IMG/VR virus record: IMGVR_UViG_3300042905_004680
Coordinates: 1 to 27,821 of that record
DNA from: a virus
Reading direction: 5' to 3' (one strand)
DNA length: 27,821 bases
Made by a program: the position numbers and the translations under genes. This document shows positions 6,744-27,482 of this stretch, piece after piece. The first letter of the stretch is position 1, and each line of letters opens with the position of its first letter. The notes below the pieces were generated by a model. The model did not search any database, had not been told where the DNA came from, and worked only from the letters and a program-made list of their open reading frames with translations.

Positions 6744-7196
6744 TCACGCGAGGGTGACGTAGATGATGTTGGCCACCTGCGAAACGGTGCAGGTGTAGCC
6801 GCGAGCTGAGACGCACGTCAGGTTGCCCAGCCCGGTGACCGTGCCCGTCACCTCGAAGAGCTCGTAGGTGCCCTTGGTGACGTAGGTCGACTCGCCCAGG
6901 TTGACCGTCGTGGCACCCGAAAAGACGAGGTTGCCCTCGACGTACTGCTTGCCATTGGTCGACGCGCTGACGGTGTTCGCAATGACGCGGTCGTTGACCT
7001 CGTCGTAAACCAGAGCGCCCGTCGGCGGCAGCTCCACGCCTTCGGAAAAGCCAACCGCCACCAACGTCACGTGCTCAAGGCCGGTGACGGTGCCGGTGAC
7101 CTTAAAGAGCTCGTAAGCCCCGGCAACCGCGTACACGTCGCCGTGCAGCTCGATGGTCGTCGGCCCGGTGAAGAGCAGGTTGCCTTCGACGTACTG
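6744..7196 (-). repeat. Two-copy C-terminal domain of the repeat fibre
   Basis: Residues 800-882 and 883-949 are two related copies. Each begins QYVEGNLxFxGxTT and contains YELFxVTGTVTGLxxxT. The spacing is 83 residues, and the second copy ends with VSQVANIIYVTLA. The GTYELF phrase resembles strands near the ends of repeat-rich adhesins. It probably forms the fibre tip or trimerisation head. Confidence 0.7.
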
Positions 7197-9593
7197 CGCC
7201 CCGTAGGTGTACTCGTCGCTCTTGGCGAACGTGAAGGTGCCCGCAGCCCCGGTCGCGTCAGGACCCGCCCAATTGCGCACAATATTGAACGTCGCCGTGA
7301 ACGTCCCGCCGTCGGCCGTAGCATCTGGCCCGCTCCACGAGGCGGTCTCGCTGACGCCGAAGGTCCCGCCGTCCGCGTCGCTGTCGGGTCCCGCCCACGA
7401 GGCGAGCTCGGTCGCGGTGAAGGTACCGCCGCCGCCGTTGGCCTCGGGCCCGGTCCAGTTGGCAATCGTGAGCACGGTGCTCGTGAAGGTGCCGCCGTCC
7501 GCGTCAGCGTCGGGACCAGCCCACGCCGCGCCCTCGTTGACCGCGAAGGTGCCGCCGTCCCCAGAGGCGTCAGGCCCTGCCCATGCCGCAGTCTCAAGCG
7601 CCGTGAACGAGCCACCCGCCGCGTCAGCGTCAGGCCCAGCCCACGAGGCAGGCTCGGCCGAGGTGAACGTGCCACCCGCACCGGTCGCGTCGGGCCCTGT
7701 CCAGGACGCGAGCTCGAGGACGGTGAAGGAGCCCGCCGCACCACTGGCGTCAGGACCCGCCCATGCCGCGCTGTCGCTCGCCCCGAAAGTCCCGCCGTCG
7801 GCCTGCGCCGAGGCCCCAGCCCACGAGGCGAGCTCGTCGGCCGTGAACGTGCCCGCAGTGCCATCGGCGTCAGGCCCCGCCCATGCTGCACTCTTCAGAG
7901 CGCCGAAGGTCCCGCCCTCTCCGGTCGCATCCGGCCCGCTCCAAAGCGCCGCCTCTGCACTGGCAAACGTGCCGCCGTCAGCGTCTGCACCCGAACCTGC
8001 CCAGGACGCAGCCTCGGACGCCGAGAACGTCCCGCCATCGGCAGACGCATCCGGCCCAGCCCAGAAGGCGCCGTCGGAGGAGGTGAACGTACCACCCTCG
8101 CCCAGCGCGTCAGGACCGGCCCACGACGAGGCCTCGGTCGTCGAGAAGGTCCCGGCATCCCCGAGGGCGTCCGGACCCGTCCACGAGGCCGTCTCGCTTG
8201 CGTCAAAGGCACCGCCCGCGGCAGACGCATCGGGTCCTGCCCACGACGCCGGCTCCGCGGCCGTGAAGGTCCCGCCGTCGGCAAGCGCGTCAGGCCCGGA
8301 CCAGAGGGCAGCCTCGGCCGCAGTGAAGGCGCCCGCGTCGCCCGACGCATCCGGACCGCTCCACGAGGCCAGCTCAAGCGCGGTAAACGCGCCGCCGTCG
8401 CCCTGGGCGTCCGGCCCGGACCAGTAGACCAGCTCGCCGACGGTGAAGCTGCCGCCGTCAGCGGTCGCGTCAGGACCCGCCCAGCTTGCCAGCTCCAGCG
8501 CGTCGAAGGTGCCAGCCTCGCCGAACGACTGCGGCCCCTGCCACAAGCTCTCGATGTTTACGGAGTAGGCGCCGCCGTCGGCCGTAGCATCTGGCCCTGC
8601 CCAATTGGCGAGCTCAAGCGCTCCAAAGGTGCCGCCGTCGCCGTCGCTCTCCGGGCCCGTCCAGTTGGCCAGTTCGAGCGCCCCGAAGTTGCCGCCGTCG
8701 CCGTCAGCGTTAGGGCCAGACCAGAGCGCCGCCTCGGCCGCGTCAAAGCTGCCACCGCCGGCAATGGCGTCTGGCCCGGACCAAGAGGCGTTTTCGCTGG
8801 CGGTGAACTCGGCCTGCGTCCCGTTCGCGCTTGGCCCCATCCACACCGCGAACTCCAGCACCCCAAAGCTGCCCGCGTCGCCGCTGGCGTCAGGGCCGCC
8901 CCACGACTGGTCCTCCTGCGCCGCCCACGAGCCGCCGTCGCCGACCGCCGTCGAGCCGCTCCAGTTGGCCGACTCAAGCGCCGCGAACGAGCCGCCCACG
9001 CCGAGGGCGTCAGGCCCCGACCAGTTCGCCGCCTCGGCCACGTCGAAGGTGCCGCCGTCGCCCTGGGCGTCTGGCCCAACCCACGACGCCAGCTCGAGCG
9101 CCGAGAAGCTACCGCCCGCGCCGAGGGCGTCAGGTCCGCCCCACGTTGCCTCTTCGTTGACCCCAAAGTTGCCGCCCCACGCACTGGCGTCTGGCCCGGA
9201 CCAGTTGGCGAGCTCCAACGCCGAGAAGCTACCGCCCGCGCCCGAGGCGTCAGGCCCCGCGTAATCGGCCTCTACGGTTGCGCCGAAGGTCCCGCCCGCA
9301 CCCGAGGCGGTAGGCCCGGACCAGTTGGCCGTCTCCAGCGCCGAGAAGAGCGCCGTCGAGCCGTCAGCCTCGGGCCCCTGCCAGTCGGCCGACCGCGACG
9401 CCGCGAAGACGCCAGCGTCAGCGACCGCGTCGGGTCCACCCCAGGTGGCCTGCTCGTTGACGCCAAAGTTCCCGCCAAACGCGACCGCAACAGGCCCAGC
9501 CCACGACGCCACGATAGGCGGCCGGCGCCGGTTCTGCGCACCCGTGGTGACGTACCACAGGTCCGAGTACCACTTGCGGCTCTGCGTCGACAT
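6744..9593 (-). CDS. Giant fibre protein with 38 twenty-residue repeats
   Basis: A 949-residue protein. Residues 1-28 form a basic, Trp/Tyr-rich leader (RKWYSDLWYV). Residues 29-789 hold 38 tandem units of the pattern ASWxGPDAxGxGGTFxAxEL. All are 20 residues except units 34 (22), 37 (23) and 38 (about 16). Residues 790-949 carry two related beta-rich units ending the chain. Regular hydrophobic W and F positions with Gly/Pro turns suggest a repetitive beta structure such as a beta-roll or trimeric beta-spiral shaft, with the C-terminal units as the tip. Its place among distal-tail genes points to a long fibre. ATG 9593 overlaps the upstream stop by one base (TGATG). I do not recognise this repeat as a named family. 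Confidence 0.75.
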   Translation of the reverse strand: MSTQSRKWYSDLWYVTTGAQNRRRPPIVASWAGPVAVAFGGNFGVNEQATWGGPDAVADAGVFAASRSADWQGPEADGSTALFSALETANWSGPTASGAGGTFGATVEADYAGPDASGAGGSFSALELANWSGPDASAWGGNFGVNEEATWGGPDALGAGGSFSALELASWVGPDAQGDGGTFDVAEAANWSGPDALGVGGSFAALESANWSGSTAVGDGGSWAAQEDQSWGGPDASGDAGSFGVLEFAVWMGPSANGTQAEFTASENASWSGPDAIAGGGSFDAAEAALWSGPNADGDGGNFGALELANWTGPESDGDGGTFGALELANWAGPDATADGGAYSVNIESLWQGPQSFGEAGTFDALELASWAGPDATADGGSFTVGELVYWSGPDAQGDGGAFTALELASWSGPDASGDAGAFTAAEAALWSGPDALADGGTFTAAEPASWAGPDASAAGGAFDASETASWTGPDALGDAGTFSTTEASSWAGPDALGEGGTFTSSDGAFWAGPDASADGGTFSASEAASWAGSGADADGGTFASAEAALWSGPDATGEGGTFGALKSAAWAGPDADGTAGTFTADELASWAGASAQADGGTFGASDSAAWAGPDASGAAGSFTVLELASWTGPDATGAGGTFTSAEPASWAGPDADAAGGSFTALETAAWAGPDASGDGGTFAVNEGAAWAGPDADADGGTFTSTVLTIANWTGPEANGGGGTFTATELASWAGPDSDADGGTFGVSETASWSGPDATADGGTFTATFNIVRNWAGPDATGAAGTFTFAKSDEYTYGAQYVEGNLLFTGPTTIELHGDVYAVAGAYELFKVTGTVTGLEHVTLVAVGFSEGVELPPTGALVYDEVNDRVIANTVSASTNGKQYVEGNLVFSGATTVNLGESTYVTKGTYELFEVTGTVTGLGNLTCVSARGYTCTVSQVANIIYVTLA
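7227..9509 (-). repeat. 60-bp tandem coding repeat, about 38 units
   Basis: About 2.3 kb of in-frame 60-bp units encode the 20-residue repeats. Copies differ at many bases while the amino acid pattern (W at position 3, GPDA at 5-8, GG at 12-13, F at 15) is held, so protein selection rather than recent copying keeps the array. Higher-order copies exist: around 9430-9485 and 9128-9183 the DNA is very similar, five units apart. The period explains the long open frames on the opposite strand. Confidence 0.85.
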
Positions 9594-9943
9594 CAGGCCG
9601 GCCGGGTGCGGCTGGTGTACTCGATGATGACGTCGATTTCACCGGCGGTCGCCTCAAGCCGCACGCCCGAGGGCTGCGCCGGAATCCACCCCGTGTCGAT
9701 GCGCGTCTCGTCGAGCTGCGAACACTCCGACGCCGACAGGGCCGCGGTGTCCGCCGGGTCGGCCACGCCCGTGTCGAGCTCGTGGACGTTCCGAAAGAGG
9801 ACCACAACATCTGTCGCGTCGCCGCTCAGCAGCAAGCGGAAGTCGTTGGCGAGCGGCATGATGACGGTAGCCGAGGGCTCCTCGGCCGTCAGCGACACGC
9901 GCGCCACCTGGAAGAAGTCACGGAGAGCCATCGTGCGCCGCAT
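9593..9943 (-). CDS. Small distal-tail protein
   Basis: A 116-residue protein starting at ATG 9943 (MRRTMALRDF), two bases after the upstream stop; ATG 9931 is an alternative. It contains a beta-rich core (VSLTAEEPSATVIMPLANDF, then VVVLFRNVHELDTG) and ends in EIDVIIEYTSR. No family is recognised. Its stop shares one base with the start of the repeat fibre, so it may help attach that fibre to the tail. This is an inference from position only. Confidence 0.5.
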   Translation of the reverse strand: MRRTMALRDFFQVARVSLTAEEPSATVIMPLANDFRLLLSGDATDVVVLFRNVHELDTGVADPADTAALSASECSQLDETRIDTGWIPAQPSGVRLEATAGEIDVIIEYTSRTRPA

Positions 9944-9944
9944 G

Positions 9945-10469
9945 TCAGACCGCCGGTTCGAGGACAGGATAAAAGGCGAGGGCGAGCAGTTGGCCGTAGC
10001 CGTTGGCGAACGCCACCGTCGCGGTGACAGTCGACCATGTTGCAAGCGGTCCGGCCAGCACCTCCAGAGATTGCGTTGAAACTCCGGGCGTTGCGGCTTG
10101 CGCGCTGCCCTCGTCCCACCACGCAGACTGCGGGTCGATGTTGTCCACGCCCCCGAGGGGCAGCGTCGCAGCCAGACCGGTGACCGACAGCCCGAAGGAC
10201 AAGGCGCCCCACGAGTAGACTGCGACCCGCATGCGGCGGCAGTACGGCGGCACGCGAAGTAGCACCTGCCGCGTCTCGGTCCCCGCGTAGAACTGCGCCG
10301 GCTCGTTGAGCGTCAAGACAAAGGGAGGCGTGCCCCACCCACAGGCCAGAGCGTGCTGCCGTGACTCGATGGTCCGCACGATGGCGGCATCGCCGGCGGT
10401 GTAGTCATCGAGCGACGAGGGGCGTTCGAGGAGGTCCAGCGAGACATCGAACTGCGGCGGCCTGCTCAT
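9945..10469 (-). CDS. Distal-tail beta-sandwich protein
   Basis: A 174-residue protein. ATG 10469 is chosen because it overlaps the upstream stop (ATGA) and has GGAGG eight bases upstream. The sequence alternates hydrophobic and polar residues in strands (RQVLLRVPPYCRRMRVAVYSWG, ATVAFANGYGQLLALAFYPV), suggesting a jelly-roll fold. No catalytic motif is visible. It is followed by another small distal-tail gene and the giant fibre. It may be a tail-tip or carbohydrate-binding component. Confidence 0.5.
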   Translation of the reverse strand: MSRPPQFDVSLDLLERPSSLDDYTAGDAAIVRTIESRQHALACGWGTPPFVLTLNEPAQFYAGTETRQVLLRVPPYCRRMRVAVYSWGALSFGLSVTGLAATLPLGGVDNIDPQSAWWDEGSAQAATPGVSTQSLEVLAGPLATWSTVTATVAFANGYGQLLALAFYPVLEPAV

Positions 10470-23890: not shown

Positions 23891-25280
23891 CGGGGACCTC
23901 CGGCGGCGGCTCGGCTGGCACGGGCTCGACCGCCTGCTCCTCCTCGGGCATCAGGCGCGCGTCGAGCTCCTCGTCGGCCAGCATGCGACGCAGCGCCTCC
24001 TCGACGCCAATTCCGTCCATCTTGGCGCGGGCGCGCACCTTGCCGATGAGCCCCAGGGTCTGCTGAAGCTGGAGGGCCTGCGCGTCGTGGAGCGGGTCGG
24101 CCGGCAGCACGGGCTCGCGGAACTCGAGCTCCACCTTCGCCGGCGGCAGGACCTCGACGCCACGCACCGCGTTGACGTACGCGCGGACGAGGTCGTAGCA
24201 CCGCTGTTCCCCGCGCTGGAGCTCGTCGAGGTACTTCTGCCGCTCGGTGTCGCGGTCAATCTGCTCCATCTTCTTCGCGAGCGCCGTGATGCCCGCCGAC
24301 TTCAGGAACGTCGCCGGGTTCATGCCCTGGGCGCTGATGACGGCCCGCATGTACTGCTCGTTGGTCGCAGCATACCCCGCGAGGTCCGGCTGCGGGCGCG
24401 CGAAGTCCAGGCGAGCGGTAGGGTCCCCGAACGCCGCCAGTGTCTCCGGCCCCGTGTCCATGTTCTCGGCCTCGCCCGCGCTGACGCCCGAGACGTACAT
24501 CTGGCTGTAGCCCTGCAACCGCGCGATGTGCCCGAGGTCGGTCATGTCGTGGTTGATTGCCCGCTGCGCGTCGAGAAGGTCGTCGGGCGCGTAGCACCAC
24601 CACGCCCCAGAGACCGTGTCGTCTCCACGCATGCACACGACGGGGATGCGGCCAAACGGATTGACTCCGCCAAACGGCGGCGGGTACTCCTCCGCGTACT
24701 CGTCCATCCAAGTGATGTCCGTCGCCGTGAAGCGCGCGGTCGCGTACCGCACCCCGCCGAGGTCCGGGTCCTGCTCGATGGGCACGAGGATGCGCCACGC
24801 CGAGACCTCGTCCTCCGACTGCGCCAGCGGGTCTGTCAGCTCCACCGCCTGGTCGTGCGGCGGCATGGTCACGCAGCGCAGCGAGGCCCCGTTCGGGAAC
24901 AGCCAGACCGTCGACTGGTTGAGCGTGACCAACTGCCCGTAGGCCGCTTGCATCGCCTTGTCGACGCCGGCCTCCGAGTACACAAGCTCGATGACGCGCT
25001 GCACCGCCTCCGGCAGCGGCAGCCCCGTCACCGGGTCCACAAAGGCCCGCGTGCGCTTCATCGAGGCCATCTCGCGGGCGTTGCGCCAGATGAACGGGAC
25101 GACGCGCTGGACGTGCTTCTGCCACGTCTTCGGGTACAGGCGCGCCCGCTGCCGGCGGCTGTCCTCCATGTTGCGGTGCAGGTACTCCCAGAGGATGCGC
25201 ATCTTGTCGCGCCAGACCTGCGAGCCCGGACCGTCCGTGAGGTATCGCCACCCGCCGTTAAGTTGCAGCGCCAGACTCAT
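23877..25280 (-). CDS. Portal protein
   Basis: A 467-residue protein with GTGAGGT before ATG 25280, eight bases after the terminase stop. An N-terminal helical region (RDKMRILWEYLHRNMEDSRRQRARLYP) leads into a long mixed region with VRYATARFTATDITWMDE and NPFGRIPVVCMRGDD, the latter typical of portal proteins (a GxxPvv strand). Then come AINHDMTDLGHIARLQGYSQMY and a long helix (EQIDRDTERQKYLDELQRGEQRCYDL) matching the clip/stem region. The C-terminus is acidic and Pro-rich. It would form the dodecameric ring through which DNA is packaged and ejected. Its position straight after the large terminase and its size support the call. Confidence 0.8.
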   Translation of the reverse strand: MSLALQLNGGWRYLTDGPGSQVWRDKMRILWEYLHRNMEDSRRQRARLYPKTWQKHVQRVVPFIWRNAREMASMKRTRAFVDPVTGLPLPEAVQRVIELVYSEAGVDKAMQAAYGQLVTLNQSTVWLFPNGASLRCVTMPPHDQAVELTDPLAQSEDEVSAWRILVPIEQDPDLGGVRYATARFTATDITWMDEYAEEYPPPFGGVNPFGRIPVVCMRGDDTVSGAWWCYAPDDLLDAQRAINHDMTDLGHIARLQGYSQMYVSGVSAGEAENMDTGPETLAAFGDPTARLDFARPQPDLAGYAATNEQYMRAVISAQGMNPATFLKSAGITALAKKMEQIDRDTERQKYLDELQRGEQRCYDLVRAYVNAVRGVEVLPPAKVELEFREPVLPADPLHDAQALQLQQTLGLIGKVRARAKMDGIGVEEALRRMLADEELDARLMPEEEQAVEPVPAEPPPEVPGAGL

Positions 25281-25287
25281 CGAGACC

Positions 25288-26781
25288 TCACAAGTGCTTG
25301 CGGCTCAGCATGTAAGCCGTCGAGTGCCGGGAATGTACCATCACCTGGTGCATGCGCAAAGCGTCGCACCCGTGGTCAAAGACGTTGTCTTTGTGCGGGA
25401 TGTTGGTGATTACTCCAAACATGTCCTGCTTGTACCTGTAGTTTTGGACGCATGCAACGATTCCGCGCCGTTCGTCCGTCTTCGCCAGGTGCCGCGCGAA
25501 GAGCAGCATCGGCGAGCGCTCCACCGGGTCGAGCTGGTCACGCACAAGCTCAATGCCCTCGGCCACGCTCTGCTCAAGGCGACTGTTCATTCGATGCACC
25601 TGCGACTTCGGGAACTGCTCAAGGCACCACTGAATCTCCCGCTTGACCGCGCGGTCGCAGACGATGTGCGTGGGCTCGCGCTGAAGGCGCTTGCAGCGCA
25701 TGACGATTTCCTCGTGGAGCTTGCCCGTCGGCACGTTGTCCGGGCAGAGCTCGTCGAAGACGATGCTGCGGCCCTGCGGGTCGCGGGCAATCCAGAGGAC
25801 GTGCGGGTACTGGTCGCCGGCGTCGTACGCCAGGTCGTACTCCATGTTAGCCAAGAAGCGACTGAACTCGACGCAATGCCGCTGCTCGTCGAACTCGGCC
25901 CAGATGACCGACTCCGGCCGCAGGATTTCGGCGAGCACCTCCTGCCGCCAGCGCCGCGCGCTGTAGTGGACCCGCAGGCCGTCGAGGTAGTTGGCGGGCA
26001 GGTGCGGGTTGTCCAGCGCCGTGTTGCGCCACCAGCCCCACCGCATCAGCTCCTTGCGGCGCTCGCCCTCGTCCTCGATGCCCTGCGCCTTGGTGCGGGC
26101 CTCGTGGAACTTGGCGACCACACCGCGCAGGCCGTTCGGCGTGGTGGTCCCGAAGATCTGGCGCCACTTGCTCCCCGGCCGCCGGATACGCCCGTCGACG
26201 GTGTCCCAGACCTCCAGCGACCGCGGGATGGTTTCGATTTCGTCCATCCACGCCGTGCTGAACTCGAAGCCCAGCAGGTTTGCAATCTTGGCGTAGGTGC
26301 GGGCGAAGACCTTGCCGCCGCAGACGAGGGTCTGCTCCTTGGCCGCCTTGTGCCACTTGCCACTCGCCAGCGGGTAGCCGGCCTGCTCCATCTCCTCGAC
26401 GTACCGGTGCCAGTGCGGCAGGTTCACGTTGCTGACCTGGTCGTGCGTCGGACCCGACAGCATGTGCCAGCCGCCCGGATTGGCGATGACGCCCATGACG
26501 AACTCGGCCCCGGCCCACGCCGTCTTGCCCGCCCCGATGCCCCCGAGGTGCAGCTTTTGGGTCTTCGGGCTCGTGTAGCGACCCTTCGCCGCGTCCCACT
26601 CCGGCAGCGACAGACCCGCGCAGTGCGCCTGTATCATGTGCGCCATGGGCTTGTAGGTCGTGACCGAGCAGAAGAACTGCAGCAACAGCCGCCGGTCCTT
26701 GGACAGCTCCTCGCGCAGCTCCCGCCACCCACGCATCTTGATGCTGGCCGCCGCGCGTCGGGCGCTCCGCCTGTCACTCAT
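25288..26781 (-). CDS. terL: Terminase large subunit
   Basis: A 497-residue protein taken from ATG 26781, which overlaps the methyltransferase stop in an ATGA junction; earlier in-frame ATGs at 26796 and 26838 lie inside the upstream genes. The ATPase half shows Walker A GGIGAGKT (residues 80-87), Walker B FSTAWMDE (174-181) and the coupling motif TTTPNG (212-217). The nuclease half has acidic residues at the expected places: Asp320 and Asp323 in AYDAGDQ, Asp376 in HIVCDRA, and Asp469/Asp473 in FDHGCDALR. It packages DNA into the procapsid through the portal and cuts concatemers. All key residues are intact. The packaging strategy cannot be told from this window. Confidence 0.95.
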   Translation of the reverse strand: MSDRRSARRAAASIKMRGWRELREELSKDRRLLLQFFCSVTTYKPMAHMIQAHCAGLSLPEWDAAKGRYTSPKTQKLHLGGIGAGKTAWAGAEFVMGVIANPGGWHMLSGPTHDQVSNVNLPHWHRYVEEMEQAGYPLASGKWHKAAKEQTLVCGGKVFARTYAKIANLLGFEFSTAWMDEIETIPRSLEVWDTVDGRIRRPGSKWRQIFGTTTPNGLRGVVAKFHEARTKAQGIEDEGERRKELMRWGWWRNTALDNPHLPANYLDGLRVHYSARRWRQEVLAEILRPESVIWAEFDEQRHCVEFSRFLANMEYDLAYDAGDQYPHVLWIARDPQGRSIVFDELCPDNVPTGKLHEEIVMRCKRLQREPTHIVCDRAVKREIQWCLEQFPKSQVHRMNSRLEQSVAEGIELVRDQLDPVERSPMLLFARHLAKTDERRGIVACVQNYRYKQDMFGVITNIPHKDNVFDHGCDALRMHQVMVHSRHSTAYMLSRKHL

Positions 26782-27469
26782 CGGAGCATCCGCCATGCTG
26801 TTGCCGCCACTGCTGGTACTTGTCCGTTTCCGATGCATCGCAGGCGGTCCACTCGAGCGGCCACCCCATCAGCCACTCGACCCACGTCGGGTTCAACGCC
26901 CCACCAGCTTGCTCCGCCAAATTGCGATGCGCCGGCCACTTCTGCATAGACGGCGCCATCATGTTCGCCTTTGCCGTCGGCGTCGGTAGCCACGAGCCAG
27001 AGTCGGTCGCGCTTGTGAGGGGCGCCAACGTGGTGCGCTCCCAGCACGCCCCACCGCGCATCATACCCCAGCGCGGCAAAGTCACCGAGGACTCTGGCAA
27101 GGCCTCGTCCCACAAGCATCGGTGAGTTCTCCACGAACGCGTAGCGAGGTCGTACCTCACCAATGATTCGCGCCATGTGCTTCCACATGGAGGACCGCTG
27201 TCCGTCGATTCCCGCGCCCTTTCCGGCGGCGCTGATGTCCTGGCAGGGAAAGCCCCCAGAAACAACGTCAACACGGCCTCGCCATGGGCGGCCGTCAAAG
27301 GTTTGAACGTCATCCCAGATTGGGAAAGGCGGCAGTGCTCCGTCGTTCTGGCGGGCAACCAAGACGCTTGCGGCGTAGGCGTCCCACTCGACAGCGCACA
27401 CGGTGCGCCATCCAAGCAGGTGTCCGCCGAGTATGCCTCCACCAGCGCCCGCGAAAAGAGCCAGCTCAT
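26774..27469 (-). CDS. Trp-rich protein overlapping the methyltransferase in a second frame
   Basis: A 231-residue open frame on the same strand as the methyltransferase, shifted by one base in register, starting and stopping four bases further on. It starts MSWLFSRALV at an ATG seven bases after GAGGAG, better spacing than the methyltransferase ATG (three bases). Notable stretches are PARTSAPPERA, WRESLVRYDLATRSWRTH, TLPRWGMMRGG, LPTPTA, NPTWVEWLMGWP and TDKYQQW. From memory, phage proteins annotated on their own carry the same series (MSFLFSRALV, WPRWGMMRNG, LNPxWVEWLMGWP). It may be a real overprinted gene of unknown function, or a conserved shadow of the methyltransferase family that has been annotated widely. 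Confidence 0.5.
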   Translation of the reverse strand: MSWLFSRALVEAYSADTCLDGAPCALSSGTPTPQASWLPARTTEHCRLSQSGMTFKPLTAAHGEAVLTLFLGAFPARTSAPPERARESTDSGPPCGSTWRESLVRYDLATRSWRTHRCLWDEALPESSVTLPRWGMMRGGACWERTTLAPLTSATDSGSWLPTPTAKANMMAPSMQKWPAHRNLAEQAGGALNPTWVEWLMGWPLEWTACDASETDKYQQWRQQHGGCSDE

Positions 27470-27473
27470 TCAT
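26778..27473 (-). CDS. DNA cytosine-5 methyltransferase (short phage type)
   Basis: A 231-residue protein starting MNELALFAGAGGG at ATG 27473. C5 methyltransferase motifs appear in order: motif I LFAGAGG (6-12), AVEWD (II, 27-31), WDDVQ (III, 53-57), catalytic Cys77 in GGFPCQD (IV), VENSP (VI, 114-118), GAPHKRDRLWLVA (VIII, about 150-162) and GNGQVP (X, 215-220). Only about 50 residues separate VIII and X, and no clear motif IX is seen, so target recognition is minimal. It would methylate phage DNA, probably to evade host restriction; no restriction nuclease is coded nearby. Its stop overlaps terL (ATGA). A second full-length frame shares the same DNA. Confidence 0.85.
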   Translation of the reverse strand: MNELALFAGAGGGILGGHLLGWRTVCAVEWDAYAASVLVARQNDGALPPFPIWDDVQTFDGRPWRGRVDVVSGGFPCQDISAAGKGAGIDGQRSSMWKHMARIIGEVRPRYAFVENSPMLVGRGLARVLGDFAALGYDARWGVLGAHHVGAPHKRDRLWLVATDADGKGEHDGAVYAEVAGASQFGGASWWGVEPDVGRVADGVAARVDRLRCIGNGQVPAVAATAWRMLR

Positions 27474-27482
27474 TGTCTCCTC
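27467..27482 (-). promoter_or_regulatory. Shared ribosome site with two ATG starts in two frames
   Basis: Minus strand GAGGAG (27482-27477) is followed by ACA, ATG (27473), A, ATG (27469). The first ATG opens the methyltransferase with three-base spacing; the second opens the overlapping Trp-rich frame with seven-base spacing. The upstream gene's TGA (27483-27481) is built into the site, so termination there may feed re-initiation. Confidence 0.7.

Follow-up and report, generated by a model that had tools for sequence, protein, structure and literature searches.

Two fully overlapping reading frames of a phage locus as the probable halves of one C5-cytosine methyltransferase

Introduction

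Prokaryotes rarely have long gene pairs that overlap fully on the same strand and in which each frame has a clear function. In the viral record IMGVR_UViG_3300042905_004680, analysed here over its whole length of 27,821 nucleotides (the window), two open reading frames of the minus strand cover nearly the same DNA. One, here MT, encodes a C5 methyltransferase; the other, SH, lies in its +1 frame. This raises the questions of whether SH is a gene at all and, if it is, what its product has to do with a methyltransferase. A preliminary description of the sequence had left the choice between a striking case of overprinting and a mere shadow of MT. The answer that we reach is a different one: MT and SH very probably encode the two subunits of a C5-cytosine methyltransferase of the M.EcoHK31I type, in fully overlapping frames of the same strand.

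Results and discussion

The locus

As Table 1 shows, the coordinates bear out the earlier statement that two same-strand frames of 231 residues are offset by four bases: SH lies 4 nt downstream of MT at the start and at the end alike, and each has 231 codons. The peptide strings that had been picked out in SH, LPRWGMMRGG, NPTWVEWLMGWP and TDKYQQW, are all present. The start region of the pair reads AGGAG-ACA-ATG-A-ATG, with the AGGAG 3 nt before the ATG of MT and 7 nt before that of SH. Downstream, the ATG of the terminase gene overlaps the stop codon of MT (ATGA), and portal, major-head and terminase genes are all present in this 27.8 kb viral record. Two long plus-strand frames, 24958-26949 (663 aa) and 7071-10079 (1002 aa), run opposite minus-strand genes, the former mostly opposite the terminase gene; both are probably ordinary spurious ORFs of high GC.

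Table 1. Features of the overlapping pair and its surroundings in the window
Feature	Position	Strand	Basis and remarks
Predicted alpha subunit, MT	26778..27473	(-)	C5-cytosine methyltransferase catalytic domain, 231 aa; ATG at 27473, stop codon 26780-26778 (ORF list); PF00145
Predicted beta subunit, SH	26774..27469	(-)	+1 frame of MT, 231 aa; ATG at 27469, stop codon 26776-26774 (ORF list); phrog_1008; selection tests
AGGAG, Shine-Dalgarno-like site	27477..27481	(-)	sequence; common to both starts
Catalytic Cys77 of MT (motif IV, GGFPCQD)	27243..27245	(-)	invariant in alignment
Variable region between motifs VIII and X	26886..26978	(-)	region-wise site classes
WLPTPTA module of SH	26972-26992	(-)	begins at upstream edge of variable region
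Motif IX in SH frame, LNPTWVEWLMGWP	26858..26896	(-)	near-invariant in 90 homologues; hhalign
Motif X in MT frame, IGNGQVP	26814..26834	(-)	G215, N216, G217, Q218 and V219 invariant
Terminase large subunit, next gene	25288..26781	(-)	phrog_2, E=4.5e-27; outside the enzyme

MT, a catalytic domain on its own

Homologues were drawn from IMG/VR, named phages, plasmids, and bacterial and archaeal genomes, and make up 136 homologous loci of 40-68% GC. MT had been described as an intact C5 methyltransferase, and motifs I (FAGAGGG), IV (GGFPCQD), VI (VENSP), VIII (HKRDRLW) and X (IGNGQVP) are indeed there, but motif IX is absent, which had gone unnoticed. MT shows the score, the catalytic PCQ, the ENx and the cofactor motifs by which Pfam recognises PF00145 (109 bits, against a cut-off of 22), and the match (E=3e-31, Pfam) covers only residues 4-166. 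The profile phrog_116 of single-chain enzymes is matched at its positions 212-375. Among the 136 MT genes, the pattern of motif VIII was found in 110 and that of motif IX, in the MT frame, in none.

The AF2 model of MT (pLDDT 77, pTM 0.76) leaves residues 169-217 unstructured. It matches M.HhaI with Z 18.8 and an rmsd of 2.6, with 179 of 327 residues aligned; the match is to the large domain of M.HhaI, which differs in being one chain with its small domain, comprising the target-recognition region (TRD) and motif IX, in frame. With a PF00145 match that stops at residue 166, a partial match to M.HhaI and residues 169-217 unstructured, MT is on this model a large domain, with motifs I-VIII and X, from which the small domain is missing.

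The missing motif in the second frame

In HhaI-type enzymes motif IX reads R-x-L-T-P-x-E-C-x-R-L-x-G-F-P. A motif IX lies in the SH frame (Table 1), and it is carried by 129 of 133 SH homologues. When one motif IX pattern was run over all frames, 84 of 85 canonical single-chain methyltransferases (IPP48-like and KPN-like) had it in frame and none of the 85 in +1. The reverse arrangement, in +1 and absent in frame, was found in 121/136 genes of the MT family and 49/58 Newport-like genes (170/194 in total). In these canonical, MT-family and Newport-like sets no gene had the motif both in frame and in +1, and none had it in +2. Several misses of the initial pattern are variants, for example FVTEMMGFP.

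Profile comparisons point the same way. SH belongs to phrog_1008 (E=5e-19), as do 89 of 90 SH homologues; the family has 329 positions and is annotated ‘DNA methyltransferase’, an annotation that is silent on its being half an enzyme. Mycobacterium phage Blue7 gp91 and Gordonia phage Upyo gp53 match it too, and in these members motifs IX and X are consecutive; the profile extends into motif X, in which it differs from the window's SH, where X is missing. Blue7 gp91 matches phrog_116 at positions 381-491, directly after the stretch matched by MT, and both it and Upyo gp53 match this profile just past the stretch of MT or of their own alpha partner. With hhalign, SH aligns to actinophage single-chain methyltransferases with E=8e-9, over the PTP modules and motif IX; against the canonical HhaI-type enzymes the best alignment also lies at motif IX, with a non-significant E of 0.067. 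Searches with SH of Pfam (E<=0.1 and E<=10), NCBIfam and PDB sequences gave no match. SH has no PF00145 signature, and its link to methyltransferases runs through phrog_1008, phrog_116 and hhalign. Modelled alone with AF2 it is of low confidence (pLDDT 60, pTM 0.24), and Foldseek found no fold match for the model.

The variable region between motifs VIII and X is near-neutral in the MT frame (pNN/pSN 0.91) and constrained in the SH frame (pNN/pNS 0.50, pSN/pSS 0.33); the regions of motifs I-VIII and of motif X show constraint in both frames. Because of this difference in the variable region, the recognition function would by inference sit in SH. There are 0-4 W/L-PTP modules per SH, mostly 1-3, and the length of SH tracks the number of modules (r=0.73).

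We read MT and SH as two halves of one enzyme because SH has the motif IX and the recognition region that MT lacks. The alpha subunit (MT) would provide the large catalytic domain with motifs I-VIII and X, and the beta subunit (SH) the small domain with the variable target-recognition region and motif IX. The two would bind each other to form one DNA-methylating enzyme, with beta setting the target site, and it is presumably phage DNA that is methylated, as a protection against host restriction. The idea of overprinting thus survives in part: both frames are under selection, but the product of SH is related to that of MT in function, since it has the very motif that MT is missing. Nor is the C-terminal part of SH confined to the overlap, as in a gene overprinted de novo: in Blue7 gp91 and Upyo gp53 it stands largely free of any overlap, and in DLane gp65 it is joined on in frame.

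The alternative that SH, though overprinted and functional, has no part in methylation and serves for example host takeover or anti-defence might appeal to its residues 1-150, which overlap motifs I-VII and are conserved and under selection with no known fold, as well as to the want of a Pfam match. We consider it improbable: SH has exactly the motif missing from MT, in a distribution complementary to that of the in-frame motif IX; in DLane gp65 motifs I-VIII are continued, in one frame, by SH-like modules, IX and X; and the hhalign similarity to single-chain enzymes is significant.

Two starts from one ribosome-binding site

If MT and SH are halves of one enzyme, collinear within it and offset by +1, they could also be joined into a single polypeptide by programmed frameshifting, all the more so as there are relatives with the halves fused in a single frame. 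The start regions of the homologues speak for separate initiation. SH begins with ATG or GTG in 132 of the 136 loci, and a stop codon in its frame directly precedes that start in 121; MT has ATG, GTG or TTG at the aligned start position in 123. Among the homologues the Shine-Dalgarno site most often lies 4 nt from the MT start, which puts it 8 nt from that of SH. Start codons, preceding stops and spacing, as read from the sequences, support two independent starts over frameshifting. Moreover, motif X stays in MT's own frame, and residues 1-150 of SH are under selection, yet a frameshift product would not use them. A frameshifted single chain is therefore very improbable, and in the preferred reading of two subunits both would probably be translated from the one ribosome-binding site, with starts 4 nt apart.

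Is the second frame a real gene?

In this GC-rich window by itself, an open SH frame is no more than mildly unusual: it has no stops, against about 2.2 expected when the synonymous codons of MT are permuted (p=0.035) or 6.4 when they are drawn by GC weight. Over the homologues as a set, chance falls far short of explaining it. Among 85 MT genes, 74 stops lie in the SH frame, nearly all of them the terminator of SH itself, against 423 expected with within-gene synonymous permutation and 882 with GC-weighted draws. Over the 136 loci SH remains open, apart from the few exceptions given below; the third frame, by comparison, has 2054 stops there and is open in none of them. Nearly all of the 80 IMG/VR loci have both frames open over their full length and keep the 4-nt start offset.

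Stops or frameshifts, which would be common in the second frame of homologues of a shadow, are few. Among loci with a full N-terminus, the sole stop within the body of SH (L033) arises from a single base change that also costs MT the glutamate of motif VI (VEN to VVN), as might be expected of a dead gene. Early stops in L086 and L157 precede a later SH start, and L157 also has a stop near the end of SH. Two further loci outside the 136 (L139 and L144) have frameshifts that disrupt MT and SH together. A copy in an E. coli prophage, annotated as a pseudogene (L191:1501-2262), has adjacent stops, TGA in MT and TAG in SH; judging by these, both genes are dead.

Selection on SH was estimated with site classes set in both frames, comparable to OLGenie, as a tree-free approximation over 36 independent pairs. 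The dNN/dNS of SH is 0.456 (95% CI 0.383-0.526), and for the unused +2 frame, taken as control, this ratio is 1.40 (1.28-1.56). SH has a dSN/dSS of 0.09-0.21, the control one of 0.68-1.13, from SS sites that are few (about 208) and saturated. Although the tests approximate OLGenie, the effects are large.

Two further results concern the synonymous choices in MT. A profile HMM of SH was built on phage sequences and scored on genome loci, with 20 synonymous permutations per locus. The mean score was 319 bits for the real genome loci and 143 bits once the MT codons were permuted, and in all 51 genome loci the real score exceeded every one of the 20 permutations. At RVA(D/H/N)GVA of MT, the codons are GTG (99/99), GCT (99/99), GGG (99/99), GTG (97/99) and GCC (98/99); elsewhere in these genes the same residues use all synonymous codons. 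The fixed third positions at RVADGVA of MT are such that SH spells EWLMGWP. Tests of the kinds that the preliminary description had proposed, for overlapping-gene selection and for synonymous constraint, both favour SH, which is a real gene under purifying selection.

The view of SH as a shadow, open and conserved-looking in +1 only by way of a conserved and GC-rich MT, could draw on the not very unlikely chance openness of the window by itself and on the higher conservation of MT, but it is refuted by the selection tests and hardly tenable given an SH frame that is open also at loci of 40-45% GC, purifying selection specific to SH, the loss of more than half of the SH score on synonymous permutation, the fixed third positions under EWLMGWP, and canonical methyltransferases whose +1 stops are near expectation (16.9 vs 20.0 and 11.2 vs 13.9).

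Comparison with known split methyltransferases

M.EcoHK31I, an E. coli enzyme, recognises YGGCCR and M.AquI CYCGRG. The subunits of M.EcoHK31I are of about 309 and 176 aa, and the ORF of the smaller one lies, in a different frame, inside the gene for the larger. The window's pair resembles this enzyme in motif layout, MT having I-VIII and X without IX, and in motif IX lying in a second predicted polypeptide, encoded in the other frame of the same DNA. It differs in its geometry, with 231 codons in both genes and starts and ends each 4 nt apart.

The two natural split C5 methyltransferases that have been described are M.AquI (I-VIII / IX-X) and M.EcoHK31I (I-VIII + X / IX) (PMC3404938), and the motif division of the latter is credited there to Lee, Kam and Shaw 1995. 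The same paper places the predicted TRD of M.EcoHK31I in its larger subunit, whereas the constraint on the variable region here is in SH. M.AquI shares with our pair a natural split after motif VIII, between a catalytic and a recognition part (PMC3404938), but its smaller subunit has both IX and X, and in the window the second chain has IX only, motif X being in the MT frame.

The kind of enzyme has thus been known since 1995, and it extends well beyond the single example that has been described. A literature search found no phage-wide description of the overlap; subscription papers lay outside the search, which makes this weak evidence of absence. The breadth, the complete overlap and the recognition region in the second frame go beyond the descriptions that were found.

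Distribution and annotation

Wherever both profiles were run on a locus, each SH homologue sits in +1 over an MT homologue. The pair is conserved over phages, bacteria and archaea, and ranges from Pseudomonadota to Patescibacteria, Verrucomicrobiota, Spirochaetia, Actinobacteria, Bacillota and Euryarchaeota. It is also seen on Leptospira interrogans plasmids (L391:1497-2312), with a single frame annotated.

Databases usually annotate one half only, and inconsistently which. The SH frame is listed as a hypothetical protein, with the MT frame unannotated, in Pseudomonas phage phPA-G, Vibrio phage 1.236.O and virus Rctr197k, in agreement with the earlier statement that independently annotated phage proteins share the second series; the MT frame alone is annotated in Acinetobacter phage ABMM1 and Salmonella phage S9-5. 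Gene callers, then, discard one of the two genes, and cloning only the annotated frame should yield an inactive protein.

We are inclined to go further and to see here an old, pan-prokaryotic overlap, in which the whole recognition domain lies in +1 of the catalytic domain, the linker of the alpha frame is a mere by-product, each gain or loss of a recognition module affects the two frames together, and many methyltransferases annotated without motif IX are half-enzymes with an unannotated partner. The pair, which appears in phages, many bacterial phyla and archaea, makes it testable how a new DNA specificity evolves in one stretch of DNA while the catalytic domain is kept intact, and why overlapped, split and fused layouts interconvert.

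Alternative layouts

In relatives the same halves, to judge by their motifs, are either fused in a single frame or encoded by two genes apart from each other. DLane gp65 (of a mycobacteriophage), ShiLan gp70 and DillTech15 gp66 are of the fused kind, with motifs I-VIII, PTP modules, EWMMGWPAGWV (IX) and X following one another in a single frame; they differ from the window's pair in that +1 retains only an SH-type N-terminal remnant. An AquI-like layout is found in six loci (L004, L028, L029, L148, L156 and L161) and in Blue7 gp92/gp91, where gp91, in the SH frame, carries both IX and X.

Three actinophage single-chain methyltransferases (L186, L189 and L192) have PTP modules in frame 0, and their +1 frame holds an SH-type N-terminal remnant with PTP modules of its own and then stops, apparently the trace of a frame switch that fused the halves. 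The methyltransferase of Arthrobacter phage 1191A (L188:346-1461) has IX and X in frame and a long +1 ORF with PTP modules, possibly a third layout in which the second frame holds recognition modules only. In that of Streptomyces phage Raleigh (L190) the variable linker is rich in R, G and E and of low complexity, as if it were the by-product of another frame. Finally, in two loci (L089 and L122) MT stops right after motif VIII and motif X is in a separate downstream ORF, with SH intact, in what looks like a natural loss of the variable region of MT.
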